Assembly (NCBI GenBank): GCA_024275165.1
Contig: JAJRZQ010000028.1
Location: 20,494-84,493, forward strand
Reading direction: 5' to 3'
From: a bacterium
Lineage (GTDB): Bacteria; SAR324; XYD2-FULL-50-16
Length of the DNA stretch: 64,000 bases
The stretch's first letter is position 1. Each line of letters begins with the position of its first letter. The position numbers were made by a program, and so were the translations under genes. This document shows positions 53,437 through 63,917 of the stretch, one piece after another. Under the pieces are notes generated by a model. That model did not search any database. It was given only the letters and a program-made list of their open reading frames with translations, and was not told where the DNA came from.

Positions 53437-54734
53437 TGGACCCAAAAATTTAGACAGGATTCGAGTTGGGCCTTATTCCTGAATAACGGCAAACAACCTC
53501 AATTCAGGAGAAAAAATGAGTCGAAAAAAAAGGTCGTTCAGCGCAGAATTCAAGACTAAAGTGGTTTTGGAACTGCTGACGGGAGAACAAACAGCAGCCC
53601 AACTGTCGAGTAAGTATCAAATCACTCCTAACAGCCTCAACCAATGGAAGAAATGTTTTCTTGAGAACGCTTCTATGGCCTTCGATGTAGGCAAGGCCAC
53701 CCAGGGATTCAAGGAAGAGATTGCGGACCTGAAGAAAGAAAACGACGCTCTTGCCAAAAAGCTAGGTAAAACCACCATCGAAAAGGATTGGGCAGTGGGA
53801 AAGCTAAAGAGCTTGGACTCATCGACTAAACGAGATCTTGTCGAGTCCAAGCTGGCAAACCCCGCCATTTCTCTGATAAGGCAATGTGAAATCATGGATT
53901 TGAATCGCTCCAGTTTGCACTATCAACCCAAGCCTATCTCAGAGCAGGATTTTGGGATCATGAACCGGATCGATGAGGTTTACGCCGATATTTTATCTAC
54001 TTATGGCTATCGCTTCACGCGCCAGCAGCTTCTCGAAGATGGGTTTTCCGTGGGGAAAAACAAGGTATTGAAACTGATGAATAAGGTGGGCATCCAGGCA
54101 ATCTTTCCAAAAAAGCGTAAATTTATGTCCATCAAGGATCGGGAACACAAGCTTTACCCCTATGCTTTGAAAGACCTGGAGATCGCCCACCCCAATCAAG
54201 TCTGGAGCGGTGACATCACATACATTCGGGCGCATGGCGGCTTCATGTATCTAGCCGCGATCATAGATTGGCACAGTCGCTCAATTCTGGTTTGGAAGCT
54301 TTCGGTCAGCATGGACACAGCCTTGGTAACCGATGTTCTGAAAGAGGCTCTAGAGCGCTATGGGAAACCTGAGATATTCAATGCAGACCAGGGCTCCCAA
54401 TATACGAGCATTCAGCATACGGGGATTCTGAAGCACAATGAGGTAACCATCTCAATGAATGGCAAGGGCCGCTCCATCGACAATATCGCCATTGAACGCT
54501 TCTTTGGAACCTTGAAATACGATGAGGTCTACATCAATGACTACAATAACATTGCGGAACCGCGGGCAGGAATCGACCACTATATGAACTTTTACAACTT
54601 CAAGCGATTTCATTCGGCCTTGGGATACCAAAAACCCATGAATGTTTATCGCAAAGAAAATCTAAAGGCTGCTTAAAGAAAAGAAGAACTAGGAATATCG
54701 TCCAGTTTAAAACCTGTCTGGACAGTTGGGTCCA
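53437..54734 (+). mobile_element. IS3-family insertion sequence, about 1.3 kb
   Basis: Imperfect terminal inverted repeats begin TGGACCCAA at both ends: 53437 onward, and the reverse complement ending at 54734. A second match AGACAGG follows at both ends. The element holds one transposase gene. The 3-4 bp flanks do not show a clear target duplication, so exact ends may be off by a base or two or the element has aged. It splits the region between tRNA-Leu and the MscS gene. Confidence 0.85.
53516..54676 (+). CDS. IS3-family transposase, single-frame OrfAB fusion
   Basis: The 386-aa protein has an N-terminal helix-turn-helix (AQLSSKYQITPNSLNQWKK), a coiled-coil, and an rve/DDE integrase core with Asp in WSGDITYI, Asp in NADQGSQYTS and Glu in IAIERFFGTL. 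IS3 elements usually encode this as two frames joined by -1 frameshifting; here one continuous frame spans both, as in some IS3 members or after a fixed fusion. All catalytic residues are intact. Confidence 0.93.
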   Translation: MSRKKRSFSAEFKTKVVLELLTGEQTAAQLSSKYQITPNSLNQWKKCFLENASMAFDVGKATQGFKEEIADLKKENDALAKKLGKTTIEKDWAVGKLKSLDSSTKRDLVESKLANPAISLIRQCEIMDLNRSSLHYQPKPISEQDFGIMNRIDEVYADILSTYGYRFTRQQLLEDGFSVGKNKVLKLMNKVGIQAIFPKKRKFMSIKDREHKLYPYALKDLEIAHPNQVWSGDITYIRAHGGFMYLAAIIDWHSRSILVWKLSVSMDTALVTDVLKEALERYGKPEIFNADQGSQYTSIQHTGILKHNEVTISMNGKGRSIDNIAIERFFGTLKYDEVYINDYNNIAEPRAGIDHYMNFYNFKRFHSALGYQKPMNVYRKENLKAA

Positions 54735-54755: not shown

Positions 54756-55940
54756 TCATTCCTTGGGAGCAGCAAAAGGGGAAAATTGCACCTGGAACAC
54801 CCTGAGTTGAAAAAGAGTCAGTTTAGAAAGAACAAAATCAATGAGGTCTGCCTGAATCCGCTCATACTGAAGCCAATCGGTTGTTTTGGTGAAGGCATAG
54901 ATTTCCACGGGCAGGCCATAGGGGGTGGGAGCCAGTTCTCGTACCATTAAGGTTTGCCCTGAATCCAAATGCGGCATGTTTTTTAATTCCGCTTCCAACC
55001 AATTGCGAAACAGCTCTAAATTCGTGACCTGAAAAGCCTTTTCTGGAGGGAGTGAGGCTCCGTTTTGGTTTACGAGCATCCGCAAGTCGGAAAGCTTCTC
55101 CGAGAGCTTTGGGTGGAGTGGAATGATGGAGTTTTGATCAATAAAAATAGACCGTTTAAGGCGCCTGGCACCTGTTTCCATCATCCCTCTCCAATTGCGA
55201 AACCCGCCTTCGGTTAGTTTATAAACGGGAATGGAAACGGTCGTTTTATCAAAATTTCGCACAATCACTTGATGCAGGCCGATTTCAATCACATCCCCAT
55301 CGGCCTTAAAACCAGGAACCTCAATCCAGTCACCGATGCGCACGAGGTTGTTTGTCGCAATCTGAATCCCGGCGATCAATGAAAGCAGGGTGTCTTTAAA
55401 TACGATGAGAAGAACGGCAGTGACGGCTCCCACCCCACTGAATAAAACCCATGGAGATTCCCCCATCCAGGTGGAAATGAGCATTAAAGCGCCTAAAATC
55501 CACAAGAGCAATTTACTCAATTGGATGTAACTGGTAATCGGGATTTTTTTAGAGACCTCTAAGGAGTTGTAATAGTCCAACGCCGCCCCTAAAAGCCGAT
55601 CTAAGGTCAGGCAAACTTGCCAAATGATCAAGCCCGCGATCAAGGTCTCTAGTTCTTGTTCAATCCCTTGAAACCACTTAGAAACATAGTAGATAACCAA
55701 GAGGGGAATTAGTTCAACGGCCTTTGCCAGTACCCCTCGTTGGAGTAAAGGGTCATCCCAGGTTACTTTGCTTTTGAGAACCAGCTTGTTCAAGGTTTTT
55801 AAAATGGTGACTTGGGTTAGCTTGTGGATGAAAAAATATAGGACCGTCAGGCTGCAAGAGGCGACAAAGAACCAAAGAACGGGCCATTGCCGCAAAAAGG
55901 CGGATATTTCTTGTATGGTTTGAAGCTCAGGTAATTGCAT
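54756..55940 (-). CDS. MscS-family mechanosensitive channel, YbdG-like
   Basis: The 394-aa inner-membrane protein has about five membrane helices and the MscS core (SLIAGIQIATNNLVRIGDWIEVPG) followed by YbdG-type sequence (KADGDVIEIGLHQVIVRNFD, then VYKLTEGGFRNWRGMMETGARR). Such channels release solutes at hypo-osmotic shock; YbdG contributes a small conductance. ATG 55940 starts the first helix region. It lies 22 bp left of nothing transcribed on its strand and is monocistronic. Confidence 0.9.
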   Translation of the reverse strand: MQLPELQTIQEISAFLRQWPVLWFFVASCSLTVLYFFIHKLTQVTILKTLNKLVLKSKVTWDDPLLQRGVLAKAVELIPLLVIYYVSKWFQGIEQELETLIAGLIIWQVCLTLDRLLGAALDYYNSLEVSKKIPITSYIQLSKLLLWILGALMLISTWMGESPWVLFSGVGAVTAVLLIVFKDTLLSLIAGIQIATNNLVRIGDWIEVPGFKADGDVIEIGLHQVIVRNFDKTTVSIPVYKLTEGGFRNWRGMMETGARRLKRSIFIDQNSIIPLHPKLSEKLSDLRMLVNQNGASLPPEKAFQVTNLELFRNWLEAELKNMPHLDSGQTLMVRELAPTPYGLPVEIYAFTKTTDWLQYERIQADLIDFVLSKLTLFQLRVFQVQFSPFAAPKE

Positions 55941-57257: not shown

Positions 57258-58511
57258 TTAACTGGCCATTCCCGCGGCGTTTTCTTGTTTATAGAGGATC
57301 ATGGGGAGCTTTTTTTCCGTAATGGTTTCTCCCGAAATGATGACCTCTTCGATATTGTCTGCGCCGGGGATATCGTACATGACCTCCATCATCGCGCTTT
57401 CCATGATCGAGCGTAGGCCCCGCGCCCCGGTTTTGCGTGAAATCGCCTGCTTGGCGATGGCGCGAATCGCCTCTTCCTTAAAGGTCATCTTAATCCCGTC
57501 AATTTCCATTAAGGTGCTGTACTGCTTCACAATCGCATTTTTTGGCTCTTTCATGATGCGTACGAGGTCGTCTTCGGTTAAGTCTTCCAAGCTGGTTAAG
57601 ACGGGCAAGCGGCCAATGAATTCGGGGATGAGCCCGAATTTTAACAGGTCTTCTGTTTCGACCAATTTAAAGAGCTCACTGGTGCTTTTCTTTTTCCCTT
57701 CTTGCAAGTCGGCGCCAAAGCCCATGGACTTTTTCCCCACCCGTTTGCTGATCACCTCGTCGAGCCCTACAAAGGCCCCACCGCAAATAAAAAGAATATT
57801 GGAGGTATCCACCTGTAAAAATTCCTGTTGAGGGTGCTTGCGCCCGCCTTGAGGGGGAATATTGGCCATGGTGCCTTCAATGATTTTTAGCAGGGCCTGT
57901 TGCACCCCTTCTCCGGAGACATCACGGGTGATGGAGACATTCTCGCTCTTGCGGGTGATCTTGTCGATTTCATCAATATAGATGATCCCTCGTTGCGCCT
58001 GCTCGATCTCGTAATCAGCCGACTGCAAGAGCTTTAAGATGATGTTTTCCACATCCTCGCCCACATAACCCGCTTCGGTTAAGGTGGTGGCATCGGCCAT
58101 GGCAAAGGGAACCTTTAAGATTTTTGCCAAGGTTTGGGCTAAGAGGGTCTTGCCCGTACCCGTGGGGCCGAGCAAGAGTACATTGGATTTAGCCAGTTCG
58201 ATCTCCCCGGTAATTTTGGCCGGGGCATAGATTTTTTTATAGTGGTTGTATACCGCAACGGAGAGTACTTTTTTAGCCTCTTCTTGCCCCACGACATATT
58301 GATCTAGTATCCCTTTGATCTGTTTGGGCTTAAGCAGATTTTGGGGGTTGCTTTCCTCACTGCTTTCCTTGGCTCGTTCCTCCTCAATGATGTCATTGCA
58401 GAGGTCGATACATTCATCGCAGATGTATACCGTTGGTCCGGCGATGATTTTTTCTACCTCTTCTTGCGACTTTCCGCAAAAAGAGCAGCGAAGATTTTGG
58501 TCCTTAGCCAT
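57258..58511 (-). CDS. clpX: ATP-dependent unfoldase ClpX
   Basis: The 417-aa AAA+ unfoldase feeds proteins to ClpP. It has the N-terminal zinc domain (CSFCGKS and ICDECIDLC), Walker [13 protein letters not shown], Walker B YIDEIDK, sensor EFIGRLPV and the C-terminal KTGARGLRS. The loop that docks on ClpP reads MGFGAD (IGF-type loop), so docking is probably kept. It is the last gene of tig-clpP-clpX. Confidence 0.96.
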
Positions 58512-58526: not shown

Positions 58527-59126
58527 TTAGGGCCGTTTTTCCATCATTTGGTCGATGATGCCGTAGTCTTTAGCCGCGTCAGCGCTCATGAAGAAATCTC
58601 GTTCCGTATCGGCCATGATTTGTTTTAAGGGTTGCCCCGTGTGTTCAGCAAGGATTTCATGCATGCGTTTTTTAAGGCGCGCGTTTTCCTTTGCTTGAAT
58701 CTCGATATCCGTGGCCTGACCGCCGATTCCCCCCATGGGTTGACGAAGCAGGATGTTTGAGTTTTTTAATGCAATCCGCTTGCCTTTTGCCCCCGCAGCA
58801 AGCAATAAAGCCGCGGTGTTATGCGCTTGGCCGATGCAGATGGTTTGTACATTGGGGCGTATATATTGGAGGGTGTCATAAATTGCCAGGGCCGAGACCA
58901 AATCACCGCCGGGACTGTTGATGTACAGGCTGATGTCCGCTTCGGGTTTATCGGCCTCCAAAAAAAGGAGTTGGGCTACCACGACATTGGCGTAACCAGA
59001 AAAAATCTGCCCACTCAAAAAGACGATTCGGTCTTTTAAAAGCCTGGAGTAGACATCATAAGAGCGCTCCCCATGGCTGCTTTGCTCAATTACATAGGGG
59101 ATGGGATAATCTGCCGATTGAATCAT
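58527..59126 (-). CDS. clpP: ClpP-family protein with lost catalytic Ser and His (ClpR-like)
   Basis: The 199-aa protein matches ClpP along its whole length: [33 protein letters not shown] and [17 protein letters not shown]. But the serine-site motif reads GQAHNTAA where GQAASMGA is usual, so Ser97 (E. coli numbering) is Asn103, and the His motif reads LLRQPMGG where MIHQPLGG is usual, so His122 is Arg128; Asp171 remains (Asp173). The gene is otherwise intact in frame. It sits between tig and clpX and overlaps tig by 4 bp. A pseudoprotease that co-assembles with an active ClpP from elsewhere is likely, as ClpR does in cyanobacteria and plastids. Confidence 0.93.
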
Positions 59127-60355
59127 GGGTTCAGTACCTTGTTGGCGATATGGTCTAAAATGGCTTCTTCGGTTACCATGTGGCGGGTGTCTTCATAAAA
59201 GCGGCGCCCGTGGTCGGACTGGATCAACTCGCTGGGGTTAAGGCCCAGCATTTGCGCGTTGAGCATGAAGCGGTTGTAGATGTTATTGGGGTCGATCTCG
59301 ATTTTTTCTTTTTCTTGCATGAGGTAAATAAACCGACCTAAACGCAGTTGCGATAACGCTTCGGCCTTGGCGTTTTCCTCCAGGTTGTCGGTTTTTTTCT
59401 GTTGGGTCAGGTCTTGTTTGAAGTGTTCGGTTTCTTGTTCGAGCAGACTTTCTGGGACGGGGAAATCTAAGATTTCGTTTAATTGCTTGCGCAGTTCGGT
59501 TCGGTAGTCTGCCGCAATTTTTTGCTCTTTGATTTCCGTGACCTCTTTTTTCACCATTTCGGTAAATTCTTCTGGGGTCGCGGCGCGGCCCGAGAAGTTT
59601 TTTAAGAATGTTTCATCCACTTCCGGCAGAATGCGGGTATCCACTCCCTGCGCCGTGACCTTGAAGTGAGTTTTTTTAGATCGGTATTCCTCTCTGGGGT
59701 GGTCTGCCGGTAAAAGGGCATCGAATTCTTTTTCCTCCCCTGCCTTTAAGCCTTGTAGGGCTTCTTCAAATTCCGGGATGAACTGTTTGGAGCCCAGTAT
59801 ATAAAAGTGGTTGGGCTGGCTTACATCTTGATTGTCTTCGGTGTGGGCCTCGAAGCTCAGCAAAATGCGGTCTCCCTCTTCAGCGGCGCTTTCTTTGGGC
59901 TCGTAGGTGGCGTACTTCTCTAAATGCTGATTTTGTTGAGCCTTTAATTCTTCTTCGGTGATTTTCACCTCTTTTTTCTCCAAGGTAAATTTGGAAAAGT
60001 CAGGCAATTGAACCTCAGGCCAGACCTCAACGGTTGCCGTAAAGGTCAGGGGCTTTTTTTTGTCGATCCGCAGGTCATCAAAATGGGGCTGGATGGCCGG
60101 GGTCAGGTTTTCTTGCTCAATCGCCTTTTGATAGTATTCGGGGACTAAGGTCTCCATCGCCTCTTCGGACATATATTTTTTAAAGCGTTTTTCCATCAAT
60201 TGCTGGGGCATTTTGCCGGGGCGGAAGCCCTTGACCTTAACTTGTCCCTTCAAGCTGCTGTATACCTTGTCGTAGGCAGCCTTGACCTGATTTTGGGGAA
60301 TGGTGATGGTTAGTTTTCGTTTTAGATCGCCTTGATCTTCGATTGCGACTTGCAT
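59123..60355 (-). CDS. tig: Trigger factor
   Basis: The 410-aa ribosome-bound chaperone and prolyl isomerase has the ribosome-binding GFRPGKMP signature, an FKBP-like middle domain ([13 protein letters not shown]... KAGEEKEF) and a helical C domain. Slightly shorter than the 432 aa of E. coli. It is the first gene of tig-clpP-clpX. The 283-bp gap to divergent modA holds its promoter. Confidence 0.95.
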
Positions 60356-60638: not shown

Positions 60639-61400
60639 ATGATACGAAATTCATTTTATTTTTTTCTATTCTTTGGTTTTGGTGCGCTGTCGACATTCCC
60701 TGTTTGCGCCAAAGGGTTTTTGGTCTTTGGGGCCGCCAGCAGTCGCCAACCCTTAGAAGCGGCGGGGAAGGCGTTTGCCCGGCAAGGGGGCAGCTTGCCT
60801 CGCTTTTCTTTTGCCGCCAGTTCCACCTTGGCAAGGCAGATTGGCGAAGGGGCGAAAGCCGAGGTTTTTTTATCGGCCAATCAACAATGGATGGATTTTT
60901 TAGAGCAAAAAAACCTGCTGCAACAGGGGATGAGGCAAAATCTTTGCGGCAATCGCCTGATCTTAGTGGGGTCTCCCTATGTTGATTTTACCGATGCCCA
61001 TTGGCCTGAAGATATGACGAAGTATTTAAAAGGGAAGCGGCTCTCTATCGGCGATCCGGCGCATGTTCCGGCAGGGATTTATGCCCGGCGGGCCCTTTCG
61101 GCTCTAGGGTTATGGAAGAGAGTTCAGGGGCAACTCGCCAGGGGCAACAGCGTGAGTCAGGCTTTGGTTTGGGTGCAATTGGGAGAGGCCCCCTTGGGGG
61201 TGGTTTATGCCAGTGATCTGCAGGGGCTGAAAAAACTGCGCGCCCTGTACCGCTTTCCTGCCTCCAGTCACCAGCCCATTCTCTACCCCCTCGCTTTAAT
61301 CAAGGGGGCTGGTTTGGAAGCGAGAGGTTTTTATCGATTTTTACTTTCCCCTAAGGGGCGAGCGTTTTTTACCCGGTACGGTTTTACGGATGTGGATTGA
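60639..61400 (+). CDS. modA: Molybdate ABC transporter substrate-binding protein ModA
   Basis: The 253-aa product has a signal peptide (ending PVCAKG) and ModA patterns: VFGAASSRQPLEAA, FAASSTLARQIGEGAKAEVFL and the GNRLILVG segment. ModA captures molybdate or tungstate in the periplasm. It starts at ATG 60639 with a weak binding site and overlaps modB by 11 bp. No ModE-type palindrome or Moco riboswitch is visible upstream. Confidence 0.92.
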   Translation: MIRNSFYFFLFFGFGALSTFPVCAKGFLVFGAASSRQPLEAAGKAFARQGGSLPRFSFAASSTLARQIGEGAKAEVFLSANQQWMDFLEQKNLLQQGMRQNLCGNRLILVGSPYVDFTDAHWPEDMTKYLKGKRLSIGDPAHVPAGIYARRALSALGLWKRVQGQLARGNSVSQALVWVQLGEAPLGVVYASDLQGLKKLRALYRFPASSHQPILYPLALIKGAGLEARGFYRFLLSPKGRAFFTRYGFTDVD

Positions 61401-62073
61401 ATTTTTAAGCCCCGAAGAGGGTGAAGCGCTTTTGCTCAGCCTTCAGGTCAGTTTGATGACGGTCATCATCGGCTTGCCCTTTGGCGTGGGTGCCGGTTGG
61501 GTTTTGGCCCGCAAGGAGTTTTACGCCAAGGGGGCCTTGGAGACCTTCATCCACCTGCCCCTGGTTTTGCCCCCTGTGGTGACGGGGTACTTGCTCTTGC
61601 TGGTTTTTGGCAGCCAGCGCCTTTTAGGTCAATTGGCCGAGGGCTTGGGCCTGGGTTTGAGTTTTTCTTGGCGGGGCGCGGTCTTAGCCAGTTTGGTGGT
61701 GAGCTTTCCTTTATATGTCAACGCGATCCGGCTCGCCATGGAGGCGGTGGATCAAAAACTGGAAGAAGCGGGGCAGACTTTAGGCATGGGCTCCTGGCGG
61801 GTTTTTTGGCAAATCACCCCCCCCCTTTCCTGGCCCGGACTGGTTACGGGGGCCATGCTCGCCTTTGCCCGGAGCCTCGGTGAATTCGGCGCCACCATCA
61901 CCTTTGTCTCGAATATTCCCGGAGAGACCCAAACCCTGCCCTTGGCTTTGTACAGCTTGACGCAAATCCCCGGAGCCGAATTCAGCGCCCTAAAGCTTTG
62001 TGCCCTCTCCTTGGCCTTAGCTCTTTTGGCTTTATGGGGTGCCCGGCAAATTCGCAAAGGAGAATGGTTGTGA
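61390..62073 (+). CDS. modB: Molybdate ABC transporter permease ModB
   Basis: The 227-aa inner-membrane permease has the EAA-type coupling loop (EEAGQTLGMGSWRVF) and the family end ARSLGEFGATITFVSN, then PLALYS. It overlaps modA by 11 bp and modC by 4 bp, so the three are one transcript. A run of nine C lies at 61817-61825. Confidence 0.93.
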   Translation: MWIEFLSPEEGEALLLSLQVSLMTVIIGLPFGVGAGWVLARKEFYAKGALETFIHLPLVLPPVVTGYLLLLVFGSQRLLGQLAEGLGLGLSFSWRGAVLASLVVSFPLYVNAIRLAMEAVDQKLEEAGQTLGMGSWRVFWQITPPLSWPGLVTGAMLAFARSLGEFGATITFVSNIPGETQTLPLALYSLTQIPGAEFSALKLCALSLALALLALWGARQIRKGEWL

Positions 62074-62735
62074 TTGAAGCGAGATTGGTGAAAGTCTTTC
62101 CTTCCTTTAAAATTCAAGTGGAGTTTTCAGCCCCTTCCCAAGGGATCACCGTCATTGCCGGCCCCTCTGGCTCGGGCAAGAGCAGCTTGATCAAAATGGT
62201 GGCCGGGTTGTTAAAACCCGACGCGGGTTATTTATCCATTCGAGGGGAGTGCTTTTTTGATTCTAGGCGCAACAAAGATGTGCCCCCAGAAAAGAGAGAC
62301 TTAGGCGTGGTTTTTCAAGAACCTCGCCTGATGCCGCACTGGACGGTGAAAAAAAACCTGCTTTGGGCCGCGCCGACCGCGAATAATCGTTTAAGTTTCG
62401 AGGAGATATTACAGCTCTTGGGCTTGGGTAAGCTGTTGGGACGGAAACCCAACGACCTATCTGGTGGGGAAGCGCAACGAGTGGCCATCGGTCGCGCCCT
62501 CTTAAAAGAGCCGAGCCTTTTATTGTTGGACGAACCCTTAGCGAATTTAGACGAGAAGCGAAAAGAGGAACTGATTGCCTTTATTCACCGGTTGCCCCAA
62601 CGGCTCAATATTCCCATCTTGTATGTTACCCATTCTAAAAAAGAGCGGGAGGCCTTGGCAGACCATACCTTATGGATTCACGACGGCTGCTTGTTGCAGG
62701 CGCAACCTTCCTCTCAAAAAACAGCGTCTCAATAG
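62070..62735 (+). CDS. modC: Molybdate ABC transporter ATPase ModC (short form)
   Basis: The 221-aa ATPase has Walker A GPSGSGKSSLIK, signature LSGGEAQRVAIGRAL, Walker B LLLLDEPLANLD and the H-loop THSKKE. It lacks the C-terminal MOP/TOBE domain of many ModC. I chose GTG 62070 because AGGAG lies seven bases upstream; ATG 62064 is too close to it. GTG overlaps the modB stop by 4 bp. Confidence 0.9.
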   Translation: MIEARLVKVFPSFKIQVEFSAPSQGITVIAGPSGSGKSSLIKMVAGLLKPDAGYLSIRGECFFDSRRNKDVPPEKRDLGVVFQEPRLMPHWTVKKNLLWAAPTANNRLSFEEILQLLGLGKLLGRKPNDLSGGEAQRVAIGRALLKEPSLLLLDEPLANLDEKRKEELIAFIHRLPQRLNIPILYVTHSKKEREALADHTLWIHDGCLLQAQPSSQKTASQ

Positions 62736-62885: not shown

Positions 62886-63917
62886 TTAATGATTTAGCAT
62901 ATCTGAAATGCCTTCAATTGAATCTACAAGCTCTTTTAATGGGGCTTTGTTGCTGTTGAAGTATGATCTTGTCGTTTGAATATCGGAATGTCGAGCCAAG
63001 CTTTGCACAAGAACCAATGGGGCACCATTATTTAAAAGCTCAGTAATAACGGTTGAACGAAATCCATGAATCGGCTTGATTCCTTTTATGTCTAGGCGCT
63101 TCATTATTTTTGATAAAGGTGTAGATATTGAGCAGTCACCAGAAAACGCTTGATTTCCTAGCCCGTCATCTAAGTACCATTGTTCTTTATTGCTCCTGCA
63201 AGCTATATCTTTTTTGAGAAAACCATGAAGGTTTTTCGCGATCGGTATCGAAGCCTCTTTTTTAGCTTTTGGTTCCCACCGGATTGGGCGATTGTGAGAT
63301 GTCGCAAGAATCGAAACAATGTGGATTGCTCCTTGCTTTAAGTCGATATTTTTTAAAAGCAGGTGCCTGATTTCTCCTCCTCTCATACCTGTAAATAAAA
63401 GCATATAGAATATACGCAAATGGTTGAGTCGTTGCTTGCGGCGTTGAGGATTTAATTCGTTTGTAAAATCAACGAGTAAATTATAGTGGATTAAGTTGAT
63501 TTGTTCTCTTGACAGTACGACATGCTCTTTTTTCAGCTTTTGCGGTTTTTTTATTTTGTACCTCGGCATTAGGTCGGCGTCAGCCGCCCAATAAAGAAAA
63601 GTTTGCAAATGGCTTGCGTATTTATTTTGAGTATTTTGTCCAAGGCTGTTTTTAACTAGTTCTAGTTTAAAGCGATTTTCGGAGGAACGGCTAAAATTAG
63701 CCAATTCGTGATCTCCTACCAAAGTAGCATATTTCTTTCTTAGTTTCCCATATTCTCGCACTGTGGCTATGGCCCGAAATTTTGAAACCTCATCAAGCCA
63801 ATAATCCATTGCCGCTAAAATATGAATTTTTCCTTGGATTAAGGGCTCAGCAAATCCTCTTTCAGCTAGTTTTTGCTTCAGAGTGTTGGCATAGAGTTCA
63901 TCTAAGAAATCATTCAC
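62886..63917 (-). CDS. Tyrosine recombinase/phage-type integrase, 5' end perhaps beyond window
   Basis: The protein has the catalytic set of tyrosine recombinases: Arg in TGMRGGEIRHLLL, HGFR (H-x-x-R), ARHSDIQTTRSYF with the second His and the nucleophile Tyr. It likely integrates the element at the tRNA fragment beside it. The GTG at 63917 is one start (343 aa), but the frame stays open to 64000 with coding-like sequence (DEAHWDGTRQ), so the true start may be outside. Base composition is AT-rich compared with the rest of the window, a sign of transfer. Confidence 0.92.
   Translation of the reverse strand: MNDFLDELYANTLKQKLAERGFAEPLIQGKIHILAAMDYWLDEVSKFRAIATVREYGKLRKKYATLVGDHELANFSRSSENRFKLELVKNSLGQNTQNKYASHLQTFLYWAADADLMPRYKIKKPQKLKKEHVVLSREQINLIHYNLLVDFTNELNPQRRKQRLNHLRIFYMLLFTGMRGGEIRHLLLKNIDLKQGAIHIVSILATSHNRPIRWEPKAKKEASIPIAKNLHGFLKKDIACRSNKEQWYLDDGLGNQAFSGDCSISTPLSKIMKRLDIKGIKPIHGFRSTVITELLNNGAPLVLVQSLARHSDIQTTRSYFNSNKAPLKELVDSIEGISDMLNH

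Follow-up and report, generated by a model that had tools for sequence, protein, structure and literature searches.

Clp cores with two kinds of subunit

Among the closest described systems are the functionally asymmetric ClpP1P2 proteases of Mycobacterium tuberculosis and Streptomyces, where one ring docks ClpX or ClpC and contributes minor or dispensable catalysis, and the other ring cuts (PMC9067928, PMC9765437). In M. tuberculosis, the ClpP2 S110A mutant grows normally and the docking patch of ClpP2 is essential; growth is also normal under forced asymmetry, when the docking patch of one ring and the catalysis of the other are mutated (PMC9067928). In Streptomyces, activity comes from ClpP1 and the ATPases are bound by ClpP2 (PMC9765437). 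Alleles without catalytic residues were noted by d'Andrea et al. 2022 in Nocardia, Streptomyces and Leptospira (one allele in L. interrogans, which one not being named), and asymmetry was proposed for other bacteria; the reason for catalytically dead subunits in some Clp cores was called poorly understood (PMC9067928).

ClpR of cyanobacteria, plastids and apicoplasts is a ClpP homolog that lacks the triad and partners an active ClpP (PMC7966870). In Listeria monocytogenes one of the two ClpPs, ClpP1, has a degenerate triad, and the two form a heteromer with one-sided ClpX docking (PMC5361862). Two ClpPs encoded at separate loci form an active complex in Leptospira and, reportedly, in Chlamydia trachomatis. 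It is in these respects that the locus described here is, or is predicted to be, similar.

The tig-clpP1-clpX operon

The window, that is, the whole stretch of 64,000 nucleotides that was analysed, contains an intact tig-clpP1-clpX operon with the following features.

57258..58511, minus strand: clpX, 417 aa, with an MGF loop for ClpP docking (KKSMGFGAD), a GYVG pore loop and intact Walker motifs
58527..59126, minus strand: clpP1, a ClpP-family protein of 199 aa, open frame by translation, motifs GQAHNTAA and LLRQPMGG
58596..58598, minus strand: GAT, Asp177, the remaining triad residue, kept (Asp171 of E. coli)
58743..58745, minus strand: CGT, Arg128 replacing catalytic His122; Arg in 10/10 family genomes, His in the sister family
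58818..58820, minus strand: AAC, Asn103 replacing catalytic Ser97 (E. coli mature numbering); Asn in 11/11 genomes of the order
59123..60355, minus strand: tig (trigger factor), overlapping the clpP1 start by 4 bp (ATGA)

The clpX start lies 15 bp past the clpP1 stop and is preceded by AGGAGG. ClpP1 matches the Pfam profile PF00574 over residues 18-197 (250 bits), which bears out the sequence-only reading of this protein as ClpP from end to end; the codons and the translation also agree with that reading on both substitutions. The AlphaFold2 monomer, modelled from a 74-row alignment, has the ClpP fold (mean pLDDT 91, TM about 0.9 against ClpP chains), and a 10-row alignment gave a mean pLDDT of 54. 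In place of the Ser-His-Asp triad of active peptidases of MEROPS family S14, the protein has Asn, Arg and Asp. Displacement of the catalytic residues, a possibility raised at the outset, is contradicted by the alignments with relatives, in which ClpP1 has no displaced Ser or His. We infer that ClpP1 lacks activity, and it is predicted to be a non-catalytic ring subunit docking ClpX.

Other genes of the window include an IS3-type transposase frame near the operon (53516-54676, helix-turn-helix and rve-like domain by sequence reading), an MscS-type mechanosensitive channel (54756-55940), molybdate-type ABC transporter genes modA, modB and modC directly beyond tig (60639-62735, also by sequence reading), and a tyrosine recombinase (62886-63917; Phage_integrase, 63 bits).

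Constraint on the dead ClpP1

Alignment of orthologs across the lineage, suggested together with the initial observation, gave Asn, Arg and Asp in ClpP1 of all 10 family genomes examined, from 7 genera. The double substitution is not due to chance, since the same Asn and Arg are common to all of them. In 95 intact ClpPs, 62 columns show conservation of 95% or more; of these, S97 and H122 are the only ones replaced in all 10 family members, and 52 are unchanged in all 10. The probability that two such columns both coincide with catalytic positions, of which there are three, is 3/1891.

The dN/dS ratio of clpP1 is 0.02-0.07 in the two pairs with unsaturated dS. In genus g4, dN is 0.06-0.07 for the dead ClpP1 versus 0.16-0.19 for the active ClpP2. 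Judged by these rates, clpP1 is under strong purifying selection and is not decaying. An error of sequencing or assembly, or a pseudogene in decay, has nothing in its favour beyond the oddity itself, and its probability is next to nil given 10 independent genomes with the same substitutions, open frames, low dN/dS and the unchanged conserved columns. The relatives thus rule out both, and the original argument against a sequencing error holds.

Order of triad loss in the phylum

The sampling of the phylum comprised 52 genomes, all from one class; most of the genomes compared are MAGs. In the sister family of the same order, represented by one genome, ClpP1 has Asn, retains His and has Glu instead of Asp. 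Two other families of the class, f3 and f4, have Ser-His-Asp in every ClpP1 read. Two genomes of the class, G029 and G034 (MAGs 91% and 83% complete), gave no ClpP match, owing either to loss or to missing contigs.

The tig-clpP1-clpX synteny is present in all genomes of the order with a dead ClpP1. In a tree built with the triad columns left out, these proteins form a single clade (support 99/89, 100% of 200 bootstrap trees); the ClpP1 and ClpP2 of the genome studied sit on longer branches than those of its relatives. As the dead ClpP1s form one clade, the replacement of Ser97 by Asn would most simply have arisen once, ahead of the split of the order. Of the 28 intact class members, 26 encode Ser97 by AGY, and the order has AAY at this position; His122 is encoded by CAY in intact class members, and the family has CGN there. 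A single transition per codon is enough to reach the first codon for Asn or for Arg.

A second ClpP with an intact triad

The search for another clpP with catalytic motifs, also proposed initially, yielded one in this genome. This ClpP2 (contig C41:143931-144509, 192 aa) has intact GLAASMGS and MIHQP motifs and Asp, and its gene adjoins ugd. ClpP2 with an intact triad was found in 7/10 genomes of the family and in that of the sister family, making 8/11 in the order, and in 9/9 class members read. Within the family the gene keeps its neighbours, namely ugd together with a sugar-nucleotide gene and one for an RNA methyltransferase (named by sequence reading).

Three MAGs of the family yielded no ClpP2: G005 (79% complete), G007 (68%) and G009 (93%), of which G007 and G009 belong to the same genus. 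The neighbouring ugd was likewise not found in these three, and absence of ClpP2 is thereby indistinguishable from missing contigs. That ClpP2 is truly gone from the genus of G007 and G009, with ClpX working with a non-cutting ClpP as a non-proteolytic machine, is hardly probable.

In G003 and G009 a further ClpP-like match, the third, came into consideration as a replacement protease. The protein has 566 aa and is encoded at L161:3233-4930(-) and also on L174, and the L161 copy lies between large unannotated phage-like genes. It was set aside because its ClpP-like domain is only C-terminal and its neighbourhood in G009 is phage-like. L161 is possibly a phage contig binned with MAGs G009 and G003.

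Complementary docking and catalytic features

The dead ClpP1s retain the canonical N-terminal loop (a stretch of 26 residues) and the pocket residues R22, L23, D26, I28, L48, F49, Y62, Y82, I90, I92 and L114. In ClpP structures these pocket positions form the hydrophobic site that receives the IGF loop of ClpX or ADEP. The [M/L]GF loop is kept in ClpX of the family, as is IGF in ClpA. Thus ClpP1 combines, at the sequence level, the N-terminal loop and the pocket with an adjoining clpX that has an [LIM]GF loop.

The ClpP2s have Ser, His and Asp in 8/8 cases, but T26 and S or T at position 28, and are mostly without R22 or Y62. Their N-termini are short, charged and unrelated to the canonical loop, and the pore loop is absent. 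The split between catalysis and docking that characterizes an asymmetric ClpP1P2 is apparent residue by residue, both in this family and in Spirochaetota. Given these complementary losses, catalytic in ClpP1 and docking in ClpP2, the chaperone appears to be bound by the product of one gene and the cutting done by that of the other. ClpP2 is without docking features also in the families with intact ClpP1; thus docking was probably one-sided before catalysis was lost.

A convergent case in Spirochaetota

Among 80 named best matches, one, from the Spirochaetia MAG L075, has Asn97 and Val in place of Asp, and is encoded in the same operon. The 48 ClpP1s of L075 relatives comprise 20 with Asn97, 7 that keep Ser and lack Asp, and 21 intact ones. 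The 20 Asn97 proteins keep Asp or have Val, Leu or Met instead, and retain the pocket; ClpP2 of Spirochaetota has the full triad and a lost pocket in 22/22 proteins read. The spirochaete Asn97 ClpP1s form a separate clade (98), which indicates that Ser97 was lost there independently. The clpX-adjacent ClpP1s of L206-L235 and L266-L284, relatives of L075, make up a second stepwise series of triad loss.

A search of 392 genomes of the phylum of L075 with a DNA pattern encoding the Asn97 motif retrieved only close relatives of L075 and a few chance matches, this count being an undercount because AGY serine codons after Asn are missed. Applied to the phylum to which a Desulfobacteraceae MAG belongs (395 genomes), an Asn97 pattern gave three matches, none in ClpP. 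The catalytic Asp is replaced by Asn, as it is in ClpP1 of Listeria, in L037, L065 and L081 (Cloacimonadota-type ClpPs and an unnamed MAG).

Candidate mechanism and its alternatives

The preferred reading, to which we assign a probability of about 0.7, is division of labour at the level of rings, with a dead ClpP1 docking ring stacked on a cutting ClpP2 ring. ClpP1 would be a gate-forming, ClpX-docking, non-catalytic subunit, most likely of one heptameric ring stacked on a heptamer of ClpP2, whose gene lies at another locus. ClpX, and probably ClpA, would dock on the ClpP1 ring only; ClpX would unfold the substrate through the ClpP1 pore, and cutting would be done by ClpP2 alone. We infer both that a heteromer forms and how it is arranged, homo-rings being stacked rather than mixed.

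One alternative is that ClpP1 and ClpP2 stand side by side in mixed heptamers, with ClpP1 serving as a ClpR-like modulator of rate or assembly. There is precedent for this in Synechococcus, where ClpP3/R consists of two identical rings, each of 3 ClpP3 and 4 ClpR, and ClpP1/P2 is likewise mixed within rings (PMC4673316). However, the pockets form between neighbouring subunits and the ClpP2s of this lineage have almost no canonical pocket residues, so mixed rings would have half-built pockets; moreover, the M. tuberculosis, Listeria and Streptomyces pairs are separate homoheptamers or have just one ring that binds the ATPase. We consider mixed rings unlikely. That ClpX and ClpP1 form a non-proteolytic complex apart from ClpP2, such as an unfoldase cap or a sequestration chamber, agrees with the joint encoding of clpP1 and clpX and with the three family MAGs, two of them congeneric, where ClpP2 was not found. 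Yet ClpP2 has been retained, its triad is intact, and lacking a docking surface it would need ClpP1 for receiving substrate; the complementary losses, moreover, are seen in two phyla. Such a complex is therefore improbable. The sequence-only reading had offered both a mixed ClpP/ClpR-type core and a non-proteolytic ClpX partner: the former is favoured by the second ClpP with its intact triad and complementary features, whereas the latter is unneeded and without positive support.

It is very improbable that ClpP1 is still catalytic through another set of residues. Asn97 and Arg122 are indeed fixed, and Asp is kept in this family; however, there is no Ser, Cys or Thr at the place of the nucleophile, Arg is not a general base, and the replacement of Asp, by Glu in the sister family and by Val, Leu or Met in the spirochaete counterparts, is as expected for catalysis that is no longer constrained.

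Under the preferred division of labour between rings, the history may have started from an old ClpP pair, in which ClpP2 lost its docking surface across the class. Catalysis by ClpP1 would have become dispensable after this loss. The change of Ser97 to Asn (AGY to AAY) would have come next, before the order split, and then, in this family, the change of His to Arg (CAY to CGN), and in the sister family that of Asp to Glu.

Comparison with known systems and implications

ClpP1 lacks the triad, as ClpR does, but it does not share the descent of ClpR: in the trees it groups within the active ClpP1s of its phylum. L031 has a ClpR, which lies on a long, distant branch and is encoded beside another ClpP and not beside clpX. 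As far as the trees tell, the dead ClpP1 is of independent origin from ClpR. Furthermore, the partner of ClpR is ClpP3 and its chaperone is ClpC, whereas ClpP1 is the ClpP of the clpX operon and has a standard ClpX pocket. In M. tuberculosis both rings naturally keep the triad and the asymmetry was obtained with engineered mutants, whereas here the loss is natural, in the docking subunit, and family-wide. In Listeria the damaged subunit (Asp172 to Asn) is also the one without the chaperone motif, whereas here the dead subunit is the one predicted to dock. In Chlamydia, ClpP2 has been modelled as catalytic in both structure and activation.

The proposed arrangement matches the forced asymmetry engineered in M. 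tuberculosis by d'Andrea et al., and Streptomyces largely follows it, so the kind of system is already known: ClpR-type inactive subunits are described, and natural asymmetry outside mycobacteria was proposed in 2022. In the open-licence literature, no papers were found on a dead ClpP of the tig-clpX operon in these lineages. The apparent novelty lies in a natural case that spans a lineage, arose stepwise and convergently, and concerns the ClpP of the canonical clpX operon, with a putative heteromeric assembly.

One phylum thus holds a natural series, from one-sided docking with both triads intact, through loss of Ser, to loss of His or Asp. The order of events, docking specialisation before catalytic loss, is now testable. 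The ClpP of the tig-clpX operon is not safely assumed to be a protease, either in annotation or in the choice of targets for active-site inhibitors.
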